Of a stretch of 64,000 nucleotides of DNA, positions 3,314 through 43,017 are shown in pieces (position 1 is the stretch's first letter; each line of letters opens with the position of its first letter). The DNA is taken from NCBI RefSeq assembly GCF_004803695.1, contig NZ_CP039393.1:1116001-1180000 (forward strand), given 5' to 3'. Both the position numbers and the translations under genes were made by a program. The notes below the pieces were generated by a model, which saw nothing but the letters and a program-made list of their open reading frames with translations, was not told the origin of the DNA and made no database searches. Source of the DNA: Muribaculum gordoncarteri. GTDB taxonomy: Bacteria; Bacteroidota; Bacteroidia; Bacteroidales; Muribaculaceae.

Positions 3314-3742
3314 TTATTCGCCTTTCTCTTCAGTCGCTTCTTCTTCCTCTTCCGGCGATACAAATTCGGTTATTCCGGCAGCGAGGAGCTGATTGTACCA
3401 GTTGAGCACCTTCTTTATGTCGTTGGTGTAAACGCGGTCTTCGTCAAAGTCGGGAAGCACTTCCTTGAAGTAGGCGCGTATGTCGGCATCGTCACCTATG
3501 GCTTTTACATCCACGGGCTTTCCGTCGGCTTTTGTTTTCAGTGATTCAAGCACTTTCGACAACGGAACATCTTCCTCTACGGTATATATGGCTATGTCAC
3601 CGAGCGATATCACTTTGTCGTGGGCGTAGGCAGGAGTGCGTTTGCCGGTCGAAAGTGACTCTACAATGAGCATATTCTTTCCTTGATTCACTAATTTGAA
3701 CAGTCCGGGTTTTCCCGATATTGCTAAAATTGTCTTTAACAT
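3314..3742 (-). CDS. DUF5606 family protein
   Basis: The 142-residue cytosolic protein opens with MLKTILAISGKPGLFKLVNQ and continues GKNMLIVESL, the hallmark start of the Bacteroidetes-specific DUF5606 family, whose function is unknown to me. The N-terminal half resembles a small beta barrel, the middle (about 60-125) is helical with ADIRAYFKEVLPDFDEDRVY, and the C-terminus ends in an acidic tail (EEEEEATEEKGE). No enzymatic motif is visible. It stands alone between a divergent promoter region and a convergent terminator. The -7 box TAATTTTG about 45 bases upstream supports this start. Confidence 0.85.
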   Translation of the reverse strand: MLKTILAISGKPGLFKLVNQGKNMLIVESLSTGKRTPAYAHDKVISLGDIAIYTVEEDVPLSKVLESLKTKADGKPVDVKAIGDDADIRAYFKEVLPDFDEDRVYTNDIKKVLNWYNQLLAAGITEFVSPEEEEEATEEKGE

Positions 3743-3786
3743 ATCTAAATGGCGTTTTTATGTGTATTGTAAAAATTTCGTATATG

Positions 3787-3794
3787 CAAAATTA
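3787..3794 (-). promoter_or_regulatory. -7 box for the DUF5606 gene
   Basis: On the minus strand this reads TAATTTTG, matching TAnnTTTG. Transcription would start near 3780, about 38 bases before the ATG at 3742. Confidence 0.5.
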
Positions 3795-3816
3795 CTCTTT
3801 TTTGGCGATATATTGT

Positions 3817-3824
3817 TAACTTTG
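3817..3824 (+). promoter_or_regulatory. -7 box for the membrane protein-smpB pair
   Basis: TAACTTTG lies 14 bases before the ATG at 3838. The inferred transcript start, near 3831, leaves a very short leader. Confidence 0.55.
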
Positions 3825-3837
3825 CCATTCCAAAATA

Positions 3838-4404
3838 ATGACGATGCTAAAGTTTTTAGGCTATTTGCTACAATTAATAATCTCACCGGCCCGTGGCTGG
3901 GAGGATATAGCCGCACGTGGCGAGGAGCCGCGTGCCATTGCATCGAGCGGCTTCTATCCCTTGATAGGCATAACGGCTTGCACGGTGTTCATTCAACGTT
4001 TCTACGTATCCTCCCTCTCATTGGTGACGATGATTCAGAATGCGGTAGTTATTTTTGTACAATATTTCGTGACATTTTTCTTTGCGGTGTTTCTGTTCTC
4101 ATTTTTCCTTAAGCGAATGGTCGACGGTGAGCCCAATGAAAAGAAGTACACCACCTTCATATTGTATAATCTGGGACTGCTTGCTGTTATAAACATAATA
4201 GGCAATTGCCTGCCGCCAATTGATCTGTCGATAGTGCAGTTCCTCCCGGTGGTGGTTGTGCTTGTTATGTGGATGGGAATGCGTTATTTGGCCGTCAGGG
4301 CGACATCATCGTTTGCTTTCACGGCGCTGAGTGTAGTGAGCATCCTGTTGCCTCCCTACATACTCGGCTGTTTGTTTCATTTTATAATGCAGCAATTATC
4401 ATGA
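3838..4404 (+). CDS. Multi-pass membrane protein, Yip1-like
   Basis: The 188-residue protein has a short amphipathic N-terminus ([16 protein letters not shown]) followed by about five hydrophobic segments (roughly 38-55, 62-88, 104-122, 128-147, 158-180). The opening [10 protein letters not shown], before a helical bundle, resembles Bacteroidetes Yip1-domain or DUF1282-type inner-membrane proteins. No catalytic motif is visible and the role is unknown. ATG at 3838 or 3844 could start translation; the first is used. The stop overlaps the smpB start as ATGA, indicating translational coupling. The overlap argues for co-transcription but not for a shared function, since this neighbour is not a known partner of SmpB. 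Confidence 0.75.
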
Positions 4405-4865
4405 ATTTGAAGAATAGTAAGGATATAAATATAAAAAACAAGCGTGCGACATTTGACTACGCCATATCCGACACATTTACGGCGGGCATCGTGCTTACCG
4501 GCACCGAAATCAAGTCGATACGCCTTGGCAAGGCGAGTCTTGCCGATTCATTCTGTTATGTGACCAATGGCGAGGTGTGGCTTAAGAATATGTATATAGC
4601 CGAATACTTCTACGGGACATATAACAATCATGCCGAGCGTCGCGACCGCAAGCTGCTCCTTAATAAGAAGGAGATTGCCAAGTTGGAGAAGAACGGCAAA
4701 GAGGCCGGATTTACCATCATCCCTATGCGATTGTTCATCAACGACCGCGGGCTTGCCAAGGTGGTTATAGGCATCGGTCGCGGTAAGAAGGAATATGACA
4801 AACGACAGTCCATCAAGGAGCGTGAGGATAAGCGCTCGATGGCACGATTGTTTGAAAAACGATAA
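4401..4865 (+). CDS. smpB: SsrA-binding protein SmpB
   Basis: The 154-residue protein starts at the ATG that overlaps the preceding stop; the frame is open further upstream, but that extension lies inside the neighbouring gene. Family signatures are present: [53 protein letters not shown] and a basic C-terminal tail ([17 protein letters not shown]). SmpB binds tmRNA, brings it to stalled ribosomes and drives trans-translation. The basic tail is the part that enters the vacant mRNA channel. The tmRNA gene ssrA is not in this window. Length and motifs are fully typical. Confidence 0.97.
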
Positions 4866-4886
4866 AGTGGAGAATTTTTTTGATTA

Positions 4887-6071
4887 CTAATGCTCGTCCT
4901 TACACAGAACGAGCATTATTTTTATGTCGCCTGTAAGGGTTGCTCCTATAAGTCGCTTGTCGCCTCCGTCCTTGACTTTCAGCTTGGCTTTCAGTTTGTC
5001 GGCCGACCATCCGAAATTTCTAACCGCTACGTTTATTTGTGGATATTTACGTGAGAATCGCTTCAGCTCACTCGACGCGAAGGGGATTACGCGCTCGATT
5101 TTCCATCGCTCGCCGGGGAACATGTCGACAGGTGACGACGATGTGTATAGATGTGTGTTGGGGTGGAGTTTCTTTACTCCGAACCGAGAGGACAGCAGTT
5201 TGTAGGGGGCGCATTTCATGACCGCAGGGTAGGGCTCGTAGAGATACCATCCATCTTCGGGAGTTCCGAACTCTACAGTGGCTTCGCTCTCCTGTGAAGG
5301 TGTATAGCTGAAGTCGTCGCCCGAGGTCCATGCATGTATTGTGACATCGTTGGTGTCGTTGGTGAAGTCGACAACGCTTACGAGTTCTTTACATTCACGG
5401 GTATTGCCCACGATGTATATGTCGCGTGTCATTGGCAGTTCCCTCAAGGTGTGTGTGACATCGAGCATCGGCGATGCCTTTACAATCAATTTGCGGCAAT
5501 GTGCCGATATGTCGGGCAGAAGTGCCGTTACATCGGGTCGGCAGTCGCTCAACGCAAAAAGTCGTTGGCCGGCGTCGCCTCGCCTCGCGGGATCGATGAA
5601 TATAGTGTCGAATCTTTTGTCACACTCCTTTAAATATGAAGTTGAGTCGCCATGTACTATCGCAACGTTGGATAATGACAGTGCCTTGGCGTTATGTGCT
5701 GCTGCTTCAGCTGTGTCGGGGTTAAGCTCTATAGCAGTGACCGATGACGCTTTTCGAGCAATGTGGAATGTGTCTATGCCAAGACCGCATGTCATGTCAA
5801 GCACGCTTGCGCAATCGTCGACCAATCCCGCATGGAAATCGGCCAGCATGTCGCTCGTACACTGTTCGGCCGACAATGTCGACGGGAAGAAGAAGTGCCG
5901 GCATTTTAATGTGTCGGGCAATTTGCGACTGCATCGCCTGCGACACTCTATCTGCGTTATCGCCGCATCGATCCACTCTTCCTTGCCGTGATTGCGAAGC
6001 CTAAGGCTTAGGACATCATCGTTGATGTTACGGTAAACCCATTCCCAAAATTCGTCATTGTCATGTATCAT
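4887..6071 (-). CDS. SAM-dependent methyltransferase with THUMP-like C-terminal domain
   Basis: The 394-residue protein has an N-terminal helical region (1-75), a Rossmann methyltransferase core with SAM motif I LDMTCGLGIDTF (91-102), AIELNPDT (motif II acidic residue) and IDPARRG (159-165), and a C-terminal THUMP-like domain (about 300-390, with KKLHPNTHLYTSS and GATLTGDIK). This matches a Bacteroidetes family annotated as class I SAM-dependent methyltransferase with THUMP-like domain. An RNA substrate is plausible because THUMP domains bind RNA, but it is not established. The -7 box TAATTTTG sits only four bases upstream of the ATG, implying an extremely short or absent leader. The 3' end contains the smpB terminator hairpin. 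Confidence 0.85.
   Translation of the reverse strand: MIHDNDEFWEWVYRNINDDVLSLRLRNHGKEEWIDAAITQIECRRRCSRKLPDTLKCRHFFFPSTLSAEQCTSDMLADFHAGLVDDCASVLDMTCGLGIDTFHIARKASSVTAIELNPDTAEAAAHNAKALSLSNVAIVHGDSTSYLKECDKRFDTIFIDPARRGDAGQRLFALSDCRPDVTALLPDISAHCRKLIVKASPMLDVTHTLRELPMTRDIYIVGNTRECKELVSVVDFTNDTNDVTIHAWTSGDDFSYTPSQESEATVEFGTPEDGWYLYEPYPAVMKCAPYKLLSSRFGVKKLHPNTHLYTSSSPVDMFPGERWKIERVIPFASSELKRFSRKYPQINVAVRNFGWSADKLKAKLKVKDGGDKRLIGATLTGDIKIMLVLCKDEH
4888..4923 (+). terminator. smpB terminator overlapping the 3' end of the opposing methyltransferase gene
   Basis: Arms TAATGCTCGT (4888-4897) and ACGAGCATTA (4909-4918) pair perfectly over 10 bp and are followed by TTTTTAT on the plus strand. The left arm includes the stop region of the minus-strand gene ending at 4887, so the same bases encode the last residues of that protein. 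Confidence 0.85.
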
Positions 6072-6075
6072 AGTG

Positions 6076-6083
6076 CAAAATTA
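6076..6083 (-). promoter_or_regulatory. -7 box just upstream of the THUMP-like methyltransferase
   Basis: TAATTTTG on the minus strand ends four bases before the ATG at 6071. If used, transcription would begin at or within the start codon. Confidence 0.4.
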
Positions 6084-6130
6084 ACAATTTATCTCCACAA
6101 ATTGCTCACACATAATTTTGGATTAACTCA

Positions 6131-6149
6131 TTATTGTCGTACCGGCTCT
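6131..6149 (+). repeat. 19-nt dispersed element, copy 1
   Basis: TTATTGTCGTACCGGCTCT matches 18 of 19 bases with 14856-14874. This copy runs directly into the -7 box TAACTTTG of the recombinase gene, 47 bases before its ATG. Confidence 0.6.
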
Positions 6150-6156
6150 AACTTTG
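6149..6156 (+). promoter_or_regulatory. -7 box for the tyrosine recombinase
   Basis: TAACTTTG fits the TAnnTTTG consensus. Transcription start is expected near 6163, about 33 bases before the ATG. Confidence 0.6.
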
Positions 6157-6195
6157 CCAAACTATTCAACAGAGATAATTTAATAAGTATTTAAC

Positions 6196-7122
6196 ATGAC
6201 AAATGAATCAAGGCATTTAAGACAAGAGCCGCTATTCTGTGAATTTATGGTGGATGTGCTGCAAGGAATGATTGCAGCTGACAAAAAACGTTGTTATGAA
6301 ACCTATCTTACCACGCTTAACAATTTCAAGCGTTTTTTGCAAGGGGGAGATATTGAATTCAGACAGCTCGACAGCATACGCTTGCTTTCCTATCAGGCGT
6401 GGTTGATACGTTCCGGAGTGACTTTAAACACCGTGTCGTTCTACATGCGCGTGCTCAGGGCTGTTTATAATCGGGCGGTTGACCGAAACATTACCGTACA
6501 GACTTACCCATTCAAGCATGTCTATACGGGAATCGAAAAGACGGTGAAGCGAGCCGTGTCGTTGAATAAAATCAGGGAAATATATTCGCTTGACCTGTCG
6601 CACGATCCGAAACTCGAGTATGCCCGTGACATGTTTATTCTGAGCTTCTTCTTAAGGGGTATGTCGTTTGTCGACATGGCATTCTTGAAAAAGAGCGATC
6701 TTGTGGGTGGACGACTTACTTATCGTCGACGGAAAACCAATCAATTGCTGGTGATAAAATGGGAACCCGTTATGCAACGCATCGTGCAGCGTTACGGCAA
6801 TCCGTCGTCAATCTACTTGCTCCCGATAATTGAGGACTCAACTGTGAATGTAAGGAGCAAATATAAGAATGGCCTCTACAAGATAAACTACAACTTGAAG
6901 CGGGTAGGGAGCAGGGTGCATCTGTCGTTGCCGTTGACCATGTATGTTGCCCGCCATTCATGGGCTTCTATCGCACGCTCGCGCAACATCCCGTTGTCGG
7001 TGATAAGCCAGGGCATGGGACATGATTCCGAATCAACGACCAAAATTTATCTGGCTTCACTTGAAACCAATGTAATCGATCGTGCCAATCAGACTTTGAT
7101 TAAGTTGCTTGAGGGTAATTAA
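6196..7122 (+). CDS. Tyrosine-type site-specific recombinase/integrase
   Basis: The 308-residue protein has an N-terminal SAM-like core-binding domain (about 12-105) and a C-terminal catalytic domain. Active-site residues are recognisable: Arg154 in LRGMSFVDM, a lysine around 180 in RRRKTN, Arg253 in YVARHSW, His276 in GMGHDSE and the nucleophile Tyr285 in TKIYLAS. The box II His is replaced by Tyr250, a variation I recall from many Bacteroidetes integrases. The length and the LRGMSFVDM signature fit the Bacteroides group of DNA invertases and transposon integrases. No excisionase, relaxase, phage gene or recognisable inverted repeat lies next to it, so its target is unknown. It is flanked by a strong convergent terminator. 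Confidence 0.9.
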   Translation: MTNESRHLRQEPLFCEFMVDVLQGMIAADKKRCYETYLTTLNNFKRFLQGGDIEFRQLDSIRLLSYQAWLIRSGVTLNTVSFYMRVLRAVYNRAVDRNITVQTYPFKHVYTGIEKTVKRAVSLNKIREIYSLDLSHDPKLEYARDMFILSFFLRGMSFVDMAFLKKSDLVGGRLTYRRRKTNQLLVIKWEPVMQRIVQRYGNPSSIYLLPIIEDSTVNVRSKYKNGLYKINYNLKRVGSRVHLSLPLTMYVARHSWASIARSRNIPLSVISQGMGHDSESTTKIYLASLETNVIDRANQTLIKLLEGN

Positions 7123-7126
7123 AATT

Positions 7127-7174
7127 AAGGACCGACACGGGTATTGAGTGCTACCAATACTCATGTCGGTCCTT
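7127..7174. terminator. Bidirectional terminator, recombinase / uxaA
   Basis: Twenty-base arms at 7127-7146 and 7155-7174 pair with one C-A mismatch and one G-T wobble around an 8-base loop. It lies between convergent genes. Confidence 0.9.
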
Positions 7175-7187
7175 TGCAATTACAATT

Positions 7188-8684
7188 CTATAGTGTCACT
7201 CCTGTTTTGAATATTGCGATTTCCTTGGCTCCGGTAAGTTCATGCTCTAACAACATTCCGCTGGCGGTGTCTATGATTTTGTCGAGCATTCGCTTGGAAG
7301 CGTTATTTATGGATTCGCCCTCTATTATCGTTCCTGCATTGAAGTCAATCCAGTGCTTCTTTTTCTCATAAAGAGCTGTGTTGGTCGATATTTTCATTGT
7401 GGGGACAAATGTTCCGAATGGAGTCCCTCGCCCTGTAGTGAACAGGACGATGTGACATCCTGCCAGCGCAAGTGCGGTCGAGGCTACGAGATCATTACCC
7501 GGAGCGTTGAGCAGGTTTAGTCCGGCCTTTGTGGCTTGGCGGGCATATCCGATGACATCGACAACCGGTTTTGTGCCACCTTTCTGCACGCATCCGAGCG
7601 ACTTTTCCTCAAGAGTCGTTATGCCTCCGGCTTTGTTGCCCGGTGACGGATTTTCATATATCGGTTGGCCGTAGGAGCGGAAATAGTCCTTGAAGTCGTT
7701 TATGAGCGATGTAATCTTATTGAATATTTTTCGGTCGACAGCCCGGTTCATCAATATGGTTTCGGCTCCAAACATTTCAGGGACTTCGGTCATTATGGTT
7801 GTCGCTCCGCATTCAATCAGCTTGTCCGACACCATTCCCACAAGCGGATTGGCGGTTATCCCCGACAGGCCGTCGGAACCTCCGCATTTCAATCCCACTT
7901 TCAGAAGTGACATCGGCAGGGGCTGCCTGCGGTCGTTCTTCATCGTTTCAATCAATTGCTTGCCTATTGCGACTCCCTCTTCAATCTCGTCGTCCACTTC
8001 CTGCGCTACGAGAAACTTTATTCGTGACGGGTCGTAGTCGCCCAATGTGTCACGCAACGTTGCCAATTGGTTGTTTTCGCAACCGAGGCCGAGCACAAGT
8101 ACACCGCCTGCATTGGGATGCTTTATTAGTGCAGCCAAGGCCGAGCGGGTGTTTTCATGGTCGGTGCCGAGTTGAGAGCAGCCATAATTGTGGGTGAACG
8201 CACGCACATCGTCTACATGGCATGTGTCACACTCTTCGGTCAGTCGTTTGACGATTGCCTGAGCTTGTCCGTTGACACATCCCACCGTTGGCACTATCCA
8301 CAATTCATTGCGAATACCCATCTCTCCGTTGGCTCGTAGATAGCCGTTGATTGTGGGCGGTTCACTTGACGACGGTTTGGCCTCGATTGTCACAGGATTG
8401 TAGGTGTACTCCAAGTCAAGATCGAGCGATGTCGCGAGATTGTGGGAATGTACATGTTCGCCGGCCGTTATGTGGCTTGTCGCATGGCCTATGGGATAAC
8501 CGTATTTTACGACATCGCCTCCTTGGGCTATGTCGGTTAGCGCCACTTTGTGACCTCGAATCATGTCATCCTTCAACGTTACCGTTACGCCTCCTTCGGT
8601 CAATGTTTCACCGGCTTTTATCTCGTCGGCTAAAACTACGGCTACATTGTCGGCTGGGTTTATCCTTATGATGCGTTTAGCCAT
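7188..8684 (-). CDS. uxaA: Altronate dehydratase family protein (UxaA)
   Basis: The roughly 498-residue protein begins MAKRIIRINPADNVAVVL and carries the N-terminal SAF-like domain (about 10-85, with GEHVHSHNL) followed by the large UxaA catalytic domain: GYLRANGEMGIRNELWIVPTVGC, THNYGCSQLGTDHENTR, LKCGGSDGLSGITANP and FTTGRGTPFG. UxaA is a cytosolic metal-dependent lyase converting D-altronate to 2-keto-3-deoxy-D-gluconate. The start at 8684 overlaps the uxaB stop by 8 bases (ATGGCTAA); an in-frame ATG at 8699 would lengthen the overlap without adding conserved sequence. It is the last gene of the L-galactose operon, where it performs the final dehydration. A related sugar acid is possible, but the UxaB neighbour supports altronate. 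Confidence 0.9.
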   Translation of the reverse strand: MAKRIIRINPADNVAVVLADEIKAGETLTEGGVTVTLKDDMIRGHKVALTDIAQGGDVVKYGYPIGHATSHITAGEHVHSHNLATSLDLDLEYTYNPVTIEAKPSSSEPPTINGYLRANGEMGIRNELWIVPTVGCVNGQAQAIVKRLTEECDTCHVDDVRAFTHNYGCSQLGTDHENTRSALAALIKHPNAGGVLVLGLGCENNQLATLRDTLGDYDPSRIKFLVAQEVDDEIEEGVAIGKQLIETMKNDRRQPLPMSLLKVGLKCGGSDGLSGITANPLVGMVSDKLIECGATTIMTEVPEMFGAETILMNRAVDRKIFNKITSLINDFKDYFRSYGQPIYENPSPGNKAGGITTLEEKSLGCVQKGGTKPVVDVIGYARQATKAGLNLLNAPGNDLVASTALALAGCHIVLFTTGRGTPFGTFVPTMKISTNTALYEKKKHWIDFNAGTIIEGESINNASKRMLDKIIDTASGMLLEHELTGAKEIAIFKTGVTL

Positions 8685-39216: not shown

Positions 39217-39224
39217 TATCTTTG
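39217..39224 (+). promoter_or_regulatory. -7 box for the AmgK-RapZ fusion gene
   Basis: TATCTTTG, start expected near 39231. It lies inside the longer open frame that begins at 39187 and so fixes the true start at 39250. Confidence 0.6.
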
Positions 39225-39249: not shown

Positions 39250-40686
39250 ATGGTCGAAGATAAGTTAAGTGAACTTTATTGCAGTTATTCGGGGCATCGT
39301 CCCGACTCGGTAGTGCTGCTTCCCGGTGCCGGATCCAATAGGCGTTACTATCGTCTTGGCCCTGATCCGTCGCTTATAGGAGTGGCCGGAACTTCGAGGG
39401 ATGAGAATGAGGCGTTCATATATCTGAGCAAACACTTTTCGGAAAAAGGATTGCCGGTGCCGCGTGTATATGGTCACAGCGACGACATGATGATCTACAT
39501 TCAGGATGACCTGGGCTCATCCTCGTTGTTTGATTTCATCGCCCCGGGACGGTTAAACGGAGAGTGGAATGACGGGATTGTGTCGCTTCTTGAGAGAACC
39601 GTAAGGGTTCTTCCCGATTTTCAGTGGAAGGGTGCCGAGGGACTCGACTTCAGCCGATGCTATCCTGTAGACTCAATGAACAAGCGGGCTGTAATGTGGG
39701 ACTTGAATTATTTGAAGTACTATTTTCTAAAAACCTCGGGAGTAGAGTTTGACGAGGACAAGCTTGAGGACGATTTCGACCGATTGGCATCCTATATAGT
39801 TTCACTTGATACCGGCACGTTCATGTATCGTGACTTTCAGTCGCGCAACGTGATGACTCTTGACGGTCAACCATGGTTTATTGACTTTCAGGGAGGCCGA
39901 CGGGGGCCGTATCATTACGACATAGTGTCGTTCCTTTGGCAGGCCAAGGCCAATTTCCCCGATTGGCTTCGCGAGCGACTGCTTGATGTCTATATTGAAT
40001 CGGCGTCGCGTTACATCGCGATTGACAGGCGTCGTTTTGATGAAGAGTTGCGTTACGTGAGGTTGCTGAGGATTCTTCAGGTGCTGGGCGCTTACGGATT
40101 CCGTGGGCGTATAGAGCGCAAGCCTCATTTCCTGCAGAGCATTCCCAAGGCTCTTGAAAACTTGCGTGAGCTGTTGACCGAGCCGCTTGATGAATATGCT
40201 TATCTTAACAGCGTGCTTAACGAGCTGGTAAAGGAGGAAGCGTCAGATGAGGCTTGCGATGGATTGACAGTGAAGGTGGCGAGCTTCGGATTTCGCAAGC
40301 ATGGCATTCCTGAGGATAATTCGGGTAATGGAGGCGGATTTGTGTTTGATTGCCGAGCCATCCACAACCCCGGCCGTTACGATGATTACAAGTCGTTGAC
40401 AGGTCTTGACCGAGAGGTGATTGAGTTCCTTGAACGGGAGGACGACATGCACCGCTTCCTGGAGCATGCTTTTGCACTTGTCGATGCATCGGTTGAGCGT
40501 TACATCAAACGTGGCTTTCAACATCTGATGGTGAGCTTCGGATGCACCGGCGGCCAACACCGTTCGGTCTACAGCGCCGAGCGCATGGTCCGTCATCTTC
40601 ATGAGAAGTATAATGTCAGGGTTGTGGTCGACCATGTAGAGCAGAATATGCATAAAGTGATAAATCCGAAACAGATTAATCGATGA
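39250..40686 (+). CDS. AmgK-like amino-sugar kinase fused to a RapZ C-terminal domain
   Basis: The 478-residue protein has two parts. Residues 1-330 form an aminoglycoside-phosphotransferase-fold kinase: GSNRRYYRL nucleotide loop (28-36), catalytic YRDFQSRN with Asp195 and Asn200, metal-binding Asp212 in IDFQGGRRGPYHYDI. This pattern matches AmgK, the anomeric N-acetylmuramate/N-acetylglucosamine kinase of cell-wall recycling. Residues about 338-478 match the C-terminal domain of RapZ: VASFGFRKHGIP, FVFDCRAIHNPGRYDD, TGLDREVIEFLE and FGCTGGQHRSVYSAE. In E. coli RapZ that domain binds glucosamine-6-phosphate and RNA. The stop overlaps the MurU-like gene by 4 bases. The kinase assignment rests on motifs plus the neighbour; the sensory role of the RapZ part is inference. 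Confidence 0.88.
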   Translation: MVEDKLSELYCSYSGHRPDSVVLLPGAGSNRRYYRLGPDPSLIGVAGTSRDENEAFIYLSKHFSEKGLPVPRVYGHSDDMMIYIQDDLGSSSLFDFIAPGRLNGEWNDGIVSLLERTVRVLPDFQWKGAEGLDFSRCYPVDSMNKRAVMWDLNYLKYYFLKTSGVEFDEDKLEDDFDRLASYIVSLDTGTFMYRDFQSRNVMTLDGQPWFIDFQGGRRGPYHYDIVSFLWQAKANFPDWLRERLLDVYIESASRYIAIDRRRFDEELRYVRLLRILQVLGAYGFRGRIERKPHFLQSIPKALENLRELLTEPLDEYAYLNSVLNELVKEEASDEACDGLTVKVASFGFRKHGIPEDNSGNGGGFVFDCRAIHNPGRYDDYKSLTGLDREVIEFLEREDDMHRFLEHAFALVDASVERYIKRGFQHLMVSFGCTGGQHRSVYSAERMVRHLHEKYNVRVVVDHVEQNMHKVINPKQINR

Positions 40687-41426
40687 AAGCTATGATATTT
40701 GCGGCGGGGCTTGGAACACGCCTGCGTCCGATCACCGATAATAAGCCCAAAGCTCTTGTAGAGGTTGGGGGAGTGCCCATGTTGCGTCGTGTAATTGAGA
40801 ATTTGAAGCGTTACGGAATTGATGAGATTGTAGTCAATGTGCATCATTTTCCCGATCAGATAAAAGAGTATCTTTCAGTTAACGATAACTTTGGTGTCAA
40901 GTTGCACATAAGCGATGAAAGCGACATGCTGTTGGATACCGGAGGCGGCATATTGAAAGCTCGTGAGTGGCTTGACGGCGATGAACCTTTTCTTGTACAT
41001 AACGCCGACATATTGACCGATGTCGACCTGGGAGAGATGATTCAGCGTCATCGCGAATCGGATGCTGATGCAACGCTCCTTGTCGCACAACGCACGACAT
41101 CAAGATATTTGTTGATGGACAATGTTATGAGGATGCATGGATGGACCAATGTTAAAACCGGCGAGGTGAAGCCCGCCGGAATCGATATAGCCGATTACAG
41201 GGCCTATGCATTCGGAGGGATACACATTGTGTCGCCGTTGCTGTTTGACGACTTGGAGCGATACGGGCGCAAAGCCGATGTTTTTTCAATAATGCCTTTC
41301 TACATCGAAGCTTGTGACACAAAAAAAATAGCAGGTTATGAACCTGCTATTGACCATAATTGGTTTGATATAGGCAAGCCTGGAACATTAAAGGCGGCTT
41401 GCGAATGGGTCAAAGATTCTCTTTAA
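40683..41426 (+). CDS. murU: MurU-like nucleotidyltransferase
   Basis: The 247-residue sugar-nucleotidyltransferase has the signature MKAMIFAAGLGTRLRPITDNKPKALVEVGG, and VNVHHFPDQI, LLDTGGGILKA, VHNADILTDVD and WFDIGKPGTL. MurU couples N-acetylmuramate-1-phosphate to UDP in the AmgK-MurU recycling route to UDP-MurNAc. The 4-base overlap with the AmgK-like gene strongly supports that partnership over a generic glucose-1-phosphate enzyme. Its last 17 bases overlap the end of the convergent thioredoxin gene, and its coding sequence contains that gene's terminator hairpin (41327-41351). Confidence 0.85.
   Translation: MKAMIFAAGLGTRLRPITDNKPKALVEVGGVPMLRRVIENLKRYGIDEIVVNVHHFPDQIKEYLSVNDNFGVKLHISDESDMLLDTGGGILKAREWLDGDEPFLVHNADILTDVDLGEMIQRHRESDADATLLVAQRTTSRYLLMDNVMRMHGWTNVKTGEVKPAGIDIADYRAYAFGGIHIVSPLLFDDLERYGRKADVFSIMPFYIEACDTKKIAGYEPAIDHNWFDIGKPGTLKAACEWVKDSL
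41321..41351 (-). terminator. Terminator of the thioredoxin-like gene, embedded in murU
   Basis: Perfect 11-bp arms AATAGCAGGTT (41327-41337) and AACCTGCTATT (41341-41351) with a 3-base loop are followed on the minus strand by an eight-T run (41328-41321 region). It sits 59 bases beyond the stop of the minus-strand gene and inside murU codons for about residues 215-223. Confidence 0.87.
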
Positions 41427-43017
41427 GATATTTGGCCACTTTATCGGGAGTGGGGTTCACGGCAACAATTATGCCGTTGGCATCGATGAGATATGTGCCT
41501 CCGGCCGCATTGGAGATGCGATACTTTGTCCATATCTGATTCTTGTCGTTGAGCTCGACGAGATTGATCCACGGGTAACCGTCCTTCGCGATAGCCTTTT
41601 CCATATCCTCGGTGTTATTCTCCTCGCGGGCTACTCCCACAACAGTGAAACCTTTGTCCTTATAAGCTTCATATAGTGGAATTATTTGCTTTGAGTTTAC
41701 GCGACAAGGACCGCACCATGAAGCCCAAAGGTCAAGCAATGTGACTTTGCCTTTGGCAAGCGAGGAGAGTGTCATCTCTTTTCCGTTAAGGTCGGGTGCC
41801 GAGAAGTCGATGAAATGCGTTCCGGGGTTAATGCTTCCGGCCGATGCGATTGTAGCCAGTTCCAATGAATAGGGATGTTCGGGTTCCCATCCGGCATAGC
41901 ACTCATTGTAGGCCTCGACTATATCGTCAATTTTGTTTCCGCTATATATCGCGAGGCTCTTCAATATGCTTAGTCCGGGAATCGACTTATGTGTTTTGGC
42001 ATAGTCGATCTTCCATTTGCGAATATTGTCACTGATGGCAAATGCTTGGTCATTGATTGCATTGCCTTCGGGGGTGTACTGTTTCTTGATGTTTTCCAAT
42101 GAATCACGTTTATGATATAACGCATTACGCATCTCAGGCGTTGTGTCATCCCGCGACAGTTGATTCATAAGCTCCATGTATTCGTCGGTGAACAATTTAT
42201 TCTCATTGAATAATGAATCCATCAGAGCGTTTGTAGAGTCAAAGGCATTGGCGAAAAGAGTGTGGCGCTTATTATTATAATCATTCAGGATTTCGTTCAT
42301 TTCGCCTCCCTTTATATCTATTTTAGGCTGTTCGCCATCATGGGTGACAGCTATGTCGATATCGTTGTTCTCGGCAATGAAATCGAGGCTGTGAAAAGCG
42401 GATTGACGGTATTCATTACCATCGATAAGATTATATGTTTCAGGCCAATCGCAATACAGGTCATAGTGGAATTTGCCGTTGTTGACGGGAATTACTACAA
42501 ACATTGATATCGGCATTTCTCCTTCTTTCTTCAATATGAAGTTTGAGCAGTTGGCGTCGTCGGTTGTGCCGGATATGTGGCAGTGTATTTTGCTCTTGAT
42601 CGGATTTTGGCCCAATTGAATTCCCGATATTTTGAATCCGTTTTCACTGCCCTCGGCAAAATTTATTATTGAATCATTGGCTTCAAGAGGTGCAAATTTC
42701 AAGACCAATGGAACGGAACCGGATTCAGGCATATAACATTCTTCGCCGAGTGTATATCCATAGGACGCCAATACCGGATATTCCCGACCCGATTGTTGTC
42801 CGATTATCTTAGTGCCTTTATCAAGCGCCACCCAGTAATTGGGTCGGCTATAGAAGCTTCCGTTTATTATAGTAGCCGTGTCGCTCAATAATATCGAATT
42901 TATATTGAATGACATTGTATTCTTTTCGGAATATCGCGGCTGATCAATCAATTTCGTTTCAGCAGATGCATTTGCTGTTAATGACGCCAAGGCCAGTGAA
43001 ATCAATAATGTTTTCAT
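41410..43017 (-). CDS. Secreted TlpA-type thiol-disulfide oxidoreductase with large N-terminal domain
   Basis: The 535-residue protein has a signal peptide (MKTLLISLALASLTANASA), a long N-terminal region (about 20-390) with beta-rich DUF4369-like and helical parts, and a C-terminal AhpC/TSA-thioredoxin domain (about 395-535: FIDFSAPDLNGKEMTLSSLAKGKVTLLDLWASWCGPC). The active site is Cys435-Cys438 (WCGPC) and the cis-Pro region reads ISNAAGGTYLID. It is probably a periplasmic or membrane-associated thiol reductase of the Bacteroidetes TlpA group. Its gene end overlaps murU by 17 bases on the opposite strand. Confidence 0.87.
   Translation of the reverse strand: MKTLLISLALASLTANASAETKLIDQPRYSEKNTMSFNINSILLSDTATIINGSFYSRPNYWVALDKGTKIIGQQSGREYPVLASYGYTLGEECYMPESGSVPLVLKFAPLEANDSIINFAEGSENGFKISGIQLGQNPIKSKIHCHISGTTDDANCSNFILKKEGEMPISMFVVIPVNNGKFHYDLYCDWPETYNLIDGNEYRQSAFHSLDFIAENNDIDIAVTHDGEQPKIDIKGGEMNEILNDYNNKRHTLFANAFDSTNALMDSLFNENKLFTDEYMELMNQLSRDDTTPEMRNALYHKRDSLENIKKQYTPEGNAINDQAFAISDNIRKWKIDYAKTHKSIPGLSILKSLAIYSGNKIDDIVEAYNECYAGWEPEHPYSLELATIASAGSINPGTHFIDFSAPDLNGKEMTLSSLAKGKVTLLDLWASWCGPCRVNSKQIIPLYEAYKDKGFTVVGVAREENNTEDMEKAIAKDGYPWINLVELNDKNQIWTKYRISNAAGGTYLIDANGIIVAVNPTPDKVAKYLKENL

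Follow-up and report, generated by a model that had tools for sequence, protein, structure and literature searches.

A 478-residue protein encoded within a stretch of 64,000 nucleotides of the Muribaculum gordoncarteri genome (NZ_CP039393.1, positions 1,116,001 to 1,180,000; the whole stretch is referred to as the window) joins a kinase of the AmgK type to the C-terminal domain of RapZ (RapZ_C), and its gene overlaps that of a MurU-like sugar-1-phosphate uridylyltransferase. Tentatively, we favour the view that RapZ_C may act in this setting as a control domain which renders a kinase of amino-sugar salvage responsive to an amino-sugar phosphate. If true, a cell wall recycling kinase would possess a built-in sugar-phosphate sensor or enzyme. 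The architecture appears to be widespread and composed of known parts, the fusion itself being apparently new. In agreement with an earlier reading made from the letters of the window alone (the sequence-only reading), no prior description of it was found in the open-access literature, subscription papers lying mostly outside the scope of this search.

A kinase fused to the C-terminal domain of RapZ

The length of the open reading frame, the three sequence motifs and the four-base overlap with the next reading frame, on which the sequence-only reading had founded its proposal of a fusion, are all found in the sequence as described. That the fusion is real is further borne out by two Pfam domains (Table 1), by matches to solved structures and by its recurrence in many genomes. 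Residues 15-313 match the APH-fold kinase 3csv (E 3.7e-11) and residues 334-452 match Escherichia coli RapZ (E 4.6e-16 to 1.5e-15). Since both parts are fused in 27 of the 36 RapZ_C genomes of a phylum sample as well as in 79 of 80 loci retained from a contig scan, the fusion is neither a product of chance nor of an assembly join.

The phylum sample comprises 296 genomes, and RapZ_C was located in 36 of them by whole-genome search with PF22740; the genome of the window contains one copy. Within the order of the window, which we take to be Bacteroidales from the named relatives Bacteroides, Parabacteroides and Prevotella, the domain is present in roughly four fifths of the sampled genomes (309 of 392, belonging to 175 of 204 genera). 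Bacteroidales are prominent in the human gut. These whole-genome searches use a loose first pass, and in a control run RapZ_C was matched in 6 of 14 named genomes. Bacteroides ihuae, one of the control genomes, gave matches for AnmK and NamZ and none for RapZ_C. Bacillus subtilis gave no match either, though it bears the RapZ homologue YvcJ according to sections of PMC7525490, so that absences are perhaps too many. The contig scan confirmed at least 585 relatives. The best 80, thus the loci most similar to the fusion, were kept and include representatives of Bacteroides, Parabacteroides, Phocaeicola, Prevotella, Paludibacter and Muribaculum, and also of Ignavibacteriales and Calditrichia.

In the nine RapZ_C genomes of the phylum sample that lack the fusion, the domain constitutes a separate protein of 133-139 residues, and in seven of these nine the genes are arranged in the order kinase, RapZ_C, MurU. 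A MurU gene follows 3' on the same strand, at distances from -55 to +419 bases, in 21 of the 27 fused and in 7 of the 9 separate cases. Among the 79 fused loci of the contig scan, some of whose contigs end early, MurU is found on the same strand in 60 (in 57 cases at a distance of -181 to +326 bases) and on the opposite strand in two. In a tree of 83 RapZ_C domains, a branch with a support of 100/100 sets 71 domains from Bacteroidota and neighbours apart from the remaining 12, which are canonical or actinobacterial. At least two changes between the separate and the fused state are required by the starred branches of this tree, although the number of columns is small and the bootstrap has not settled. 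The sequence-only reading had missed three points: the frequency of the arrangement within the order of the window, the existence of a separate-gene form located between the genes for kinase and MurU, and the cysteine-phosphatase-type loop of the domain.

Two annotated copies, from Parabacteroides distasonis and Bacteroides finegoldii, are annotated as “RNase adapter RapZ”, the former being followed by a “nucleotidyltransferase family protein”. This name is misleading, and the present analysis thus corrects the designation of a common Bacteroidota protein.

Naming of the kinase and the transferase

The AmgK models NF045759 and NF045698 of NCBIfam match the kinase with E-values of 4.9e-10 and 5e-9, its scores of 39 and 35.9 bits being far below the equivalog cut-offs of 550 and 500 bits. 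For the transferase the top NCBIfam model is that of MurU (NF045761, E 9.2e-43), and the closest solved structures are of the MurU type (4y7t, E 3.5e-24; 8hhd, E 1.6e-22); with 146.7 of 250 and 121.6 of 370 bits it likewise remains under the MurU equivalog cut-offs. Because both proteins score under these cut-offs, “AmgK” and “MurU” are used here as family-level names which rest on family membership and context. The earlier assignment of an amino-sugar-type kinase carrying a RapZ C-terminal domain hence stands, as does its coupling to MurU, which is evident from gene order and co-occurrence; solely the names have to be understood at the level of the family. R194, D195, N200 and D212 of the kinase, all invariant (Table 1), presumably fulfil the customary catalytic roles (catalytic Asp and Asn, second Asp).

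The AmgK-MurU pair of Pseudomonas resembles the present one in that an APH-fold sugar kinase is followed by a MurU-like uridylyltransferase. To our knowledge, Pseudomonas AmgK does not contain RapZ_C. The Pseudomonas route makes use of AnmK and MupP (sections of PMC5371407), while a search of the window's genome did not find AnmK.

Co-occurrence with amino-sugar salvage genes

The kinase profile A3 yields scores of at least 258 bits in 37 genomes, namely in all 36 that contain RapZ_C and in one further genome (G009). All remaining matches, from 63 genomes of one other family, score 146 bits or less. Similarly, the MurU profile A2 scores at least 193 bits in 38 genomes, i.e. in the 36 RapZ_C genomes, in G009 and in G231, the last of which possesses neither an A3-type kinase nor RapZ_C. 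Kinase and MurU are thus present in every RapZ_C genome and RapZ_C in 36 of 37 kinase genomes, which counts in favour of RapZ_C being a control domain of the kinase. The genome lists underlying these tallies were copied out by hand.

A further indication of the kinase's role comes from MurQ. When absence is defined as no match better than E 5e-12 (203 genomes score above the curated cut-off), MurQ is absent from 86 of the 296 genomes and 84 of these 86 possess an AmgK-type kinase, compared to 16 of the 210 genomes with a strong MurQ match. Because the kinase is found where MurQ is missing, it is expected to operate in the salvage of N-acetylmuramic acid (MurNAc), and the observed split supports this role, although 63 of the 84 genomes belong to one family and are not independent. 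Phosphorylation of MurNAc or N-acetylglucosamine (GlcNAc) at the anomeric position would be the probable activity, judged from gene context and from this split.

The 63 genomes of the one family, all of which lack MurQ, include none of the 206 genomes that possess AnmK. At locus L177 of this family (f18; 3798-8351, plus strand) a MurU-like gene is adjacent, followed by an exo-muramidase gene of the NamZ type and a gene for a sodium:solute symporter, which makes this locus a compact cluster for the salvage of free MurNAc. At locus L171 of the same family (3415-5462, minus strand) a MurU-like gene is adjacent as well, and its protein bears a C-terminal hexapeptide part.

In Tannerella forsythia the pathway includes AmgK and MurU, and no AnmK ortholog is predicted (sections of PMC7670621). 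Sections of two further papers treat 6-kinases of this organism and do not name AmgK (PMC5790795, PMC10465942), and as far as the searches made show, none of the three papers mentions RapZ. RapZ_C is present in 3 of 13 genomes of the genus to which a bin named “Tannerella sp.” belongs. As T. forsythia may or may not be among them, we do not claim that its AmgK represents the fusion.

The anion pocket of the RapZ_C domain

Over 125 aligned residues the RapZ_C domain of the fusion is 34% identical to E. coli RapZ, and calling the two nearly identical in pattern, as had been done initially, is therefore too strong. Structural comparison of a domain model reveals that its predicted structure equals that of the C-terminal domain of E. 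coli RapZ (5o5s, 5o5q). The fusion differs by its APH-type kinase partner, by a glycine-rich insertion (SGNGGG), by the replacement of His190 (E. coli numbering), which is mostly glycine in the fusions, by an aromatic residue at position 238 and by the lack of a conserved basic tail.

The loop CTGGQHRS corresponds to a region of the E. coli domain that accommodates anions: malonate and sulfate are bound in its pocket according to sections of PMC5737377. The isolated E. coli domain binds glucosamine-6-phosphate (GlcN6P) with a KD of 10 nM, while full-length RapZ binds GlcN6P but neither Glc6P nor GlcN (sections of PMC7073468). In all 36 RapZ_C sequences of the phylum sample, positions C247, T248, G249, G250, H252, R253, S254 and V255 of this region are invariant, as are D182, R184, N188 and P189. 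The loop reads CTGG[QR]HRS in each of the 79 fused contig-scan loci and CTGG[QKR]HRS in all of 30 further loci from the window's order, these being the best-scoring 30 of the 309 genomes. Moreover, RapZ_C is better conserved than the kinase to which it is attached. Among 41 fusions (that of the window and 40 of the 79 from the contig scan) the mean pairwise identity amounts to 0.594 for RapZ_C versus 0.503 for the kinase, RapZ_C being the more similar part in 759 of 820 pairs. In the domain model the cysteine terminates a strand (91-98) and the arginine begins a helix (104-120). The anion pocket is accordingly retained, CTGGQHRS being a loop of the cysteine-phosphatase type.

A different picture is obtained for two positions outside this loop. 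Position 190 is glycine in all 36 phylum sequences, in all 79 fused contig-scan loci and in 28 of the 30 further loci of the order, whereas it is His, Tyr or Phe in ten canonical RapZ proteins and two actinobacterial plasmid proteins. Position 238 is Arg or Lys in ten of ten canonical RapZ sequences, and all 36 phylum sequences carry an aromatic residue there. Since His190 is replaced by glycine, the ligand may differ from GlcN6P, or else its contacts may; sensing of GlcN6P itself, as proposed in the sequence-only reading, is plausible. Two fused loci of the window's order, L181 and L187, feature Tyr or His at position 190 (NPYW and NPHH) and LR downstream, like canonical RapZ, and may possibly represent intermediates.

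Linear plasmids of Planobispora and Streptomyces also encode free-standing RapZ_C proteins which keep the CX5RS motif (L164:1956-2498 and L165:2001-2483). These likewise bear the name RNase adapter RapZ, and within 2 kb of them no amino-sugar gene is annotated. On a plasmid of Desulfosarcina ovata, the annotation of rapZ comprises two short pieces (L166:1567-2171), so that the gene looks broken.

Control domain, enzyme or scaffold

From the observed anatomy, conservation, gene order and co-occurrence we infer substrate, ligand and the direction of control as follows. The kinase would phosphorylate MurNAc, and probably GlcNAc too, at C1, and MurU would convert the resulting MurNAc-1-phosphate to UDP-MurNAc. 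The phosphate group of an amino-sugar phosphate, either GlcN6P or a closely related compound, would occupy the CTGGxHRS loop, and its docking would thereby alter kinase activity, in cis in the fusions and in trans where RapZ_C is a separate protein of 133-139 residues, so that salvage would be matched to amino-sugar supply. Slow hydrolysis of the ligand by the cysteine may serve to reset the sensor, as has been proposed for E. coli RapZ.

Several observations weigh against this view of RapZ_C as a control domain. G009 possesses adjacent kinase and MurU genes without RapZ_C, and the 63 genomes of the other family contain distant AmgK-like kinases without it, with MurU-like neighbours in both loci inspected; salvage may therefore run without the domain. 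Two of the 36 genomes (G180 and G271) possess all three genes, RapZ_C adjoining neither the kinase gene nor that of MurU. Nearly all genomes from which the profiles A2 and A3 derive contain RapZ_C, which favours the scores of such genomes, wide as the gap is; related genomes are no independent cases; and the failure of the B. subtilis control suggests that PF22740 absences are perhaps overstated. The position of kinase and transferase under their equivalog cut-offs and the loss of a histidine essential in E. coli point in the same direction. Finally, strictly invariant Cys, Arg and Ser residues in a domain better conserved than the kinase would suit an enzyme no less than a sensor.

Alternatively, RapZ_C may itself be an enzyme, a phosphatase of 133-140 residues which uses its cysteine to hydrolyse sugar phosphates and supplies or trims the substrates of the kinase. 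We rate this as less likely, albeit as a serious competitor. Such an enzyme would turn MurNAc-6-phosphate (MurNAc-6P) into MurNAc, replacing MupP, or act on GlcNAc-6P or GlcN6P, and fusion or operon would join phosphatase, kinase and uridylyltransferase. Khan and Gorke (2020) described a homology between the RapZ pocket and the phosphatase loop found in Cys-dependent protein-tyrosine phosphatases (PTPs) and suggested hydrolysis of GlcN6P by RapZ (PMC7199280). While the phosphatase idea is hence already in print for RapZ, its extension to the kinase fusion and the free-standing relatives is new here. YvcJ is said to have phosphatase activity, a statement given at second hand in sections of PMC7525490. 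With PTPs and low-molecular-weight PTPs the domain shares the succession of strand, CX5RS anion loop with its invariant Cys, Arg and Ser, and helix. It differs by Gly instead of His ahead of the Cys, and the loop comes without an assigned general acid. No PTP is among the 50 structural matches listed for the domain model, by which such a match is not excluded. Consistent with an enzyme, the domain persists as a separate small gene, in two genomes away from kinase and MurU, and 12 of the 36 RapZ_C genomes contain AnmK but not MurQ and would need a phosphatase for MurNAc-6P.

Yet RapZ_C does not track AnmK: of the 36 genomes with the domain 25 possess AnmK (one of them, G216, by a weak match of E 1e-10), and so do 181 of the 260 without it. 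Since the domain is independent of AnmK, a ligand available on both routes is to be expected, and GlcN6P, as precursor of UDP-GlcNAc, is expected in any such cell. Eight of the 36 genomes possess neither AnmK nor MurQ and nevertheless retain an intact loop. Among these is the genome of the window, in which a genome search found neither of the two but did find MurA and a NamZ-type muramidase, which, as we assume from the family name, would release unphosphorylated MurNAc. Although MurNAc-6P could possibly originate from an unrecognised kinase, these observations lower the rank of a MurNAc-6P phosphatase that serves AnmK or replaces MupP (a search for MupP was not made; Pfam finds no MupP-like phosphatase domain of the HAD type in the fusion). 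Because a MurNAc-6P phosphatase has no evident place in the window's genome while the pocket is intact, we prefer the control domain.

The fusion also offers a simple test bed for the question of whether the C-terminal domain of E. coli RapZ hydrolyses GlcN6P. In Bacteroidota the domain is devoid of most RNA-binding features, and the free protein of 133 residues present in some genomes would be the cleanest place to see the enzyme, if there is one. A broader proposal, which we consider doubtful, is that the C-terminal domain of RapZ is a small cysteine-dependent phosphatase of sugar phosphates which has been overlooked and which originally served amino-sugar salvage. Bacteroidota would have kept it in this setting, between AmgK and MurU or fused to them, and the RNA adapter of enterobacteria would be a later re-use.

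RapZ_C might also be mainly structural, dimerising the kinase or docking it to MurU, with the anion pocket as a relic. The C-terminal domain of E. coli RapZ dimerises on its own (sections of PMC7073468), and the position of the MurU gene directly 3' of most fused and separate cases would suit a docking function. A relic pocket would drift, however, whereas the loop is among the most conserved parts, and the two genomes which keep the domain apart from kinase and MurU argue against it too. We regard this explanation as rather improbable.

Absence of most RapZ-like RNA-binding features

The suggestion of the sequence-only reading that the C-terminal domain may bind RNA is not supported. At a threshold of E 0.001, Pfam finds solely APH and PapZ_C in the protein and thus no RapZ N-terminal domain with Walker-type motifs. 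NF003828, the model of full-length RapZ, matches residues 300-462 only, with 110 bits versus a cut-off of 244. In seven sequences compared, positions 270 and 281-283 are not kept basic, hence neither a conserved basic tail nor a KRK motif is present. GlmZ (RF00083) has no match in the window's genome while it is matched in the E. coli control; GlmY was not searched. As to residues which contact RNA, K251 is replaced by glutamine in 35 of the 36 phylum sequences and K194 is retained in five, while R184 is kept in all 36 and K170 as Lys or Arg in 34. His190, which sections of PMC9841335 describe as essential in E. coli RapZ, the exchange H190A alone abolishing cleavage of GlmZ, is glycine in all 36, just as position 238 is aromatic.

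YvcJ of B. subtilis belongs to the same C-terminal family, its RNA-binding consensus is likewise not conserved, and it is linked to UDP-GlcNAc metabolism (sections of PMC7525490). It differs from the fusion by its Walker A and B motifs and by its partner, which is GlmR/YvcK and not AmgK/MurU. Although the isolated E. coli domain binds RNA without the N-terminal one (sections of PMC7073468) and R184 and K170 are largely kept, an adapter which, like RapZ, controls glmS or murU mRNA by way of a small RNA is highly improbable in view of the missing N-terminal domain, the replacement of several RNA-contact residues and the lack of a conserved basic tail and of GlmZ, and we rejected it as principal explanation: the fusion protein is in all likelihood no RNase adapter.

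Gene context in the window

The features of the locus are compiled in Table 1. The start codon assigned to the fusion gene coincides with that of its nearest relatives (alignment A1). Upstream lie genes for a hemerythrin-like protein and a LuxR-type regulator, downstream a gene for a thioredoxin-fold protein, all on the opposite strand. Because the flanking genes are located on the other strand, the fusion gene and the MurU-like gene alone most likely form the operon.

Table 1. Coordinates of the fusion gene, its domains and motifs, and adjoining elements (positions in the window).
Feature	Position	Strand	Remarks
Fusion gene, AmgK-type kinase and RapZ C-terminal domain (478 aa plus stop)	39250..40686	+	ATG start, TGA stop
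APH/AmgK-type kinase domain, residues 24-256	39319..40017	+	PF01636, E 4.3e-11
RapZ C-terminal domain, residues 340-463	40267..40638	+	Pfam PapZ_C, E 2.5e-33, 115 bits (cut-off 27)
Catalytic loop R194-D195-FQSR-N200	39829..39849	+	R194, D195, N200 and D212 invariant (20 and 41 aligned fusions)
Kinase D212	39883-39885	+	3' of the catalytic loop
CTGGQHRS, C432-S439, CX5RS anion loop	40543..40566	+	C, T, G, G, H, R and S invariant; equivalent to E. coli C247-S254
MurU-like sugar-1-phosphate uridylyltransferase (247 aa)	40683..41426	+	Four-base overlap (ATGA) with the fusion gene
TATCTTTG, resembling the -7 element of Bacteroidetes promoters	39217..39224	+	Consensus match; 25 bases 5' of the fusion ATG

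The promoter-like element follows TAWNTTTG, a motif like the -7 element of Bacteroidetes promoters. Across the whole window this motif occurs in 34 copies where 21 are expected, a number which none of the shuffled sequences reached. The thioredoxin-fold gene (41410-43017, minus strand) converges on the MurU-like gene and shares 17 bases with it. On the minus strand, a perfect terminator-like hairpin of 11 pairs followed by a run of T (41327-41351) lies in the 3' portion of the MurU-like gene, 58 bases past the end of the thioredoxin-fold gene.

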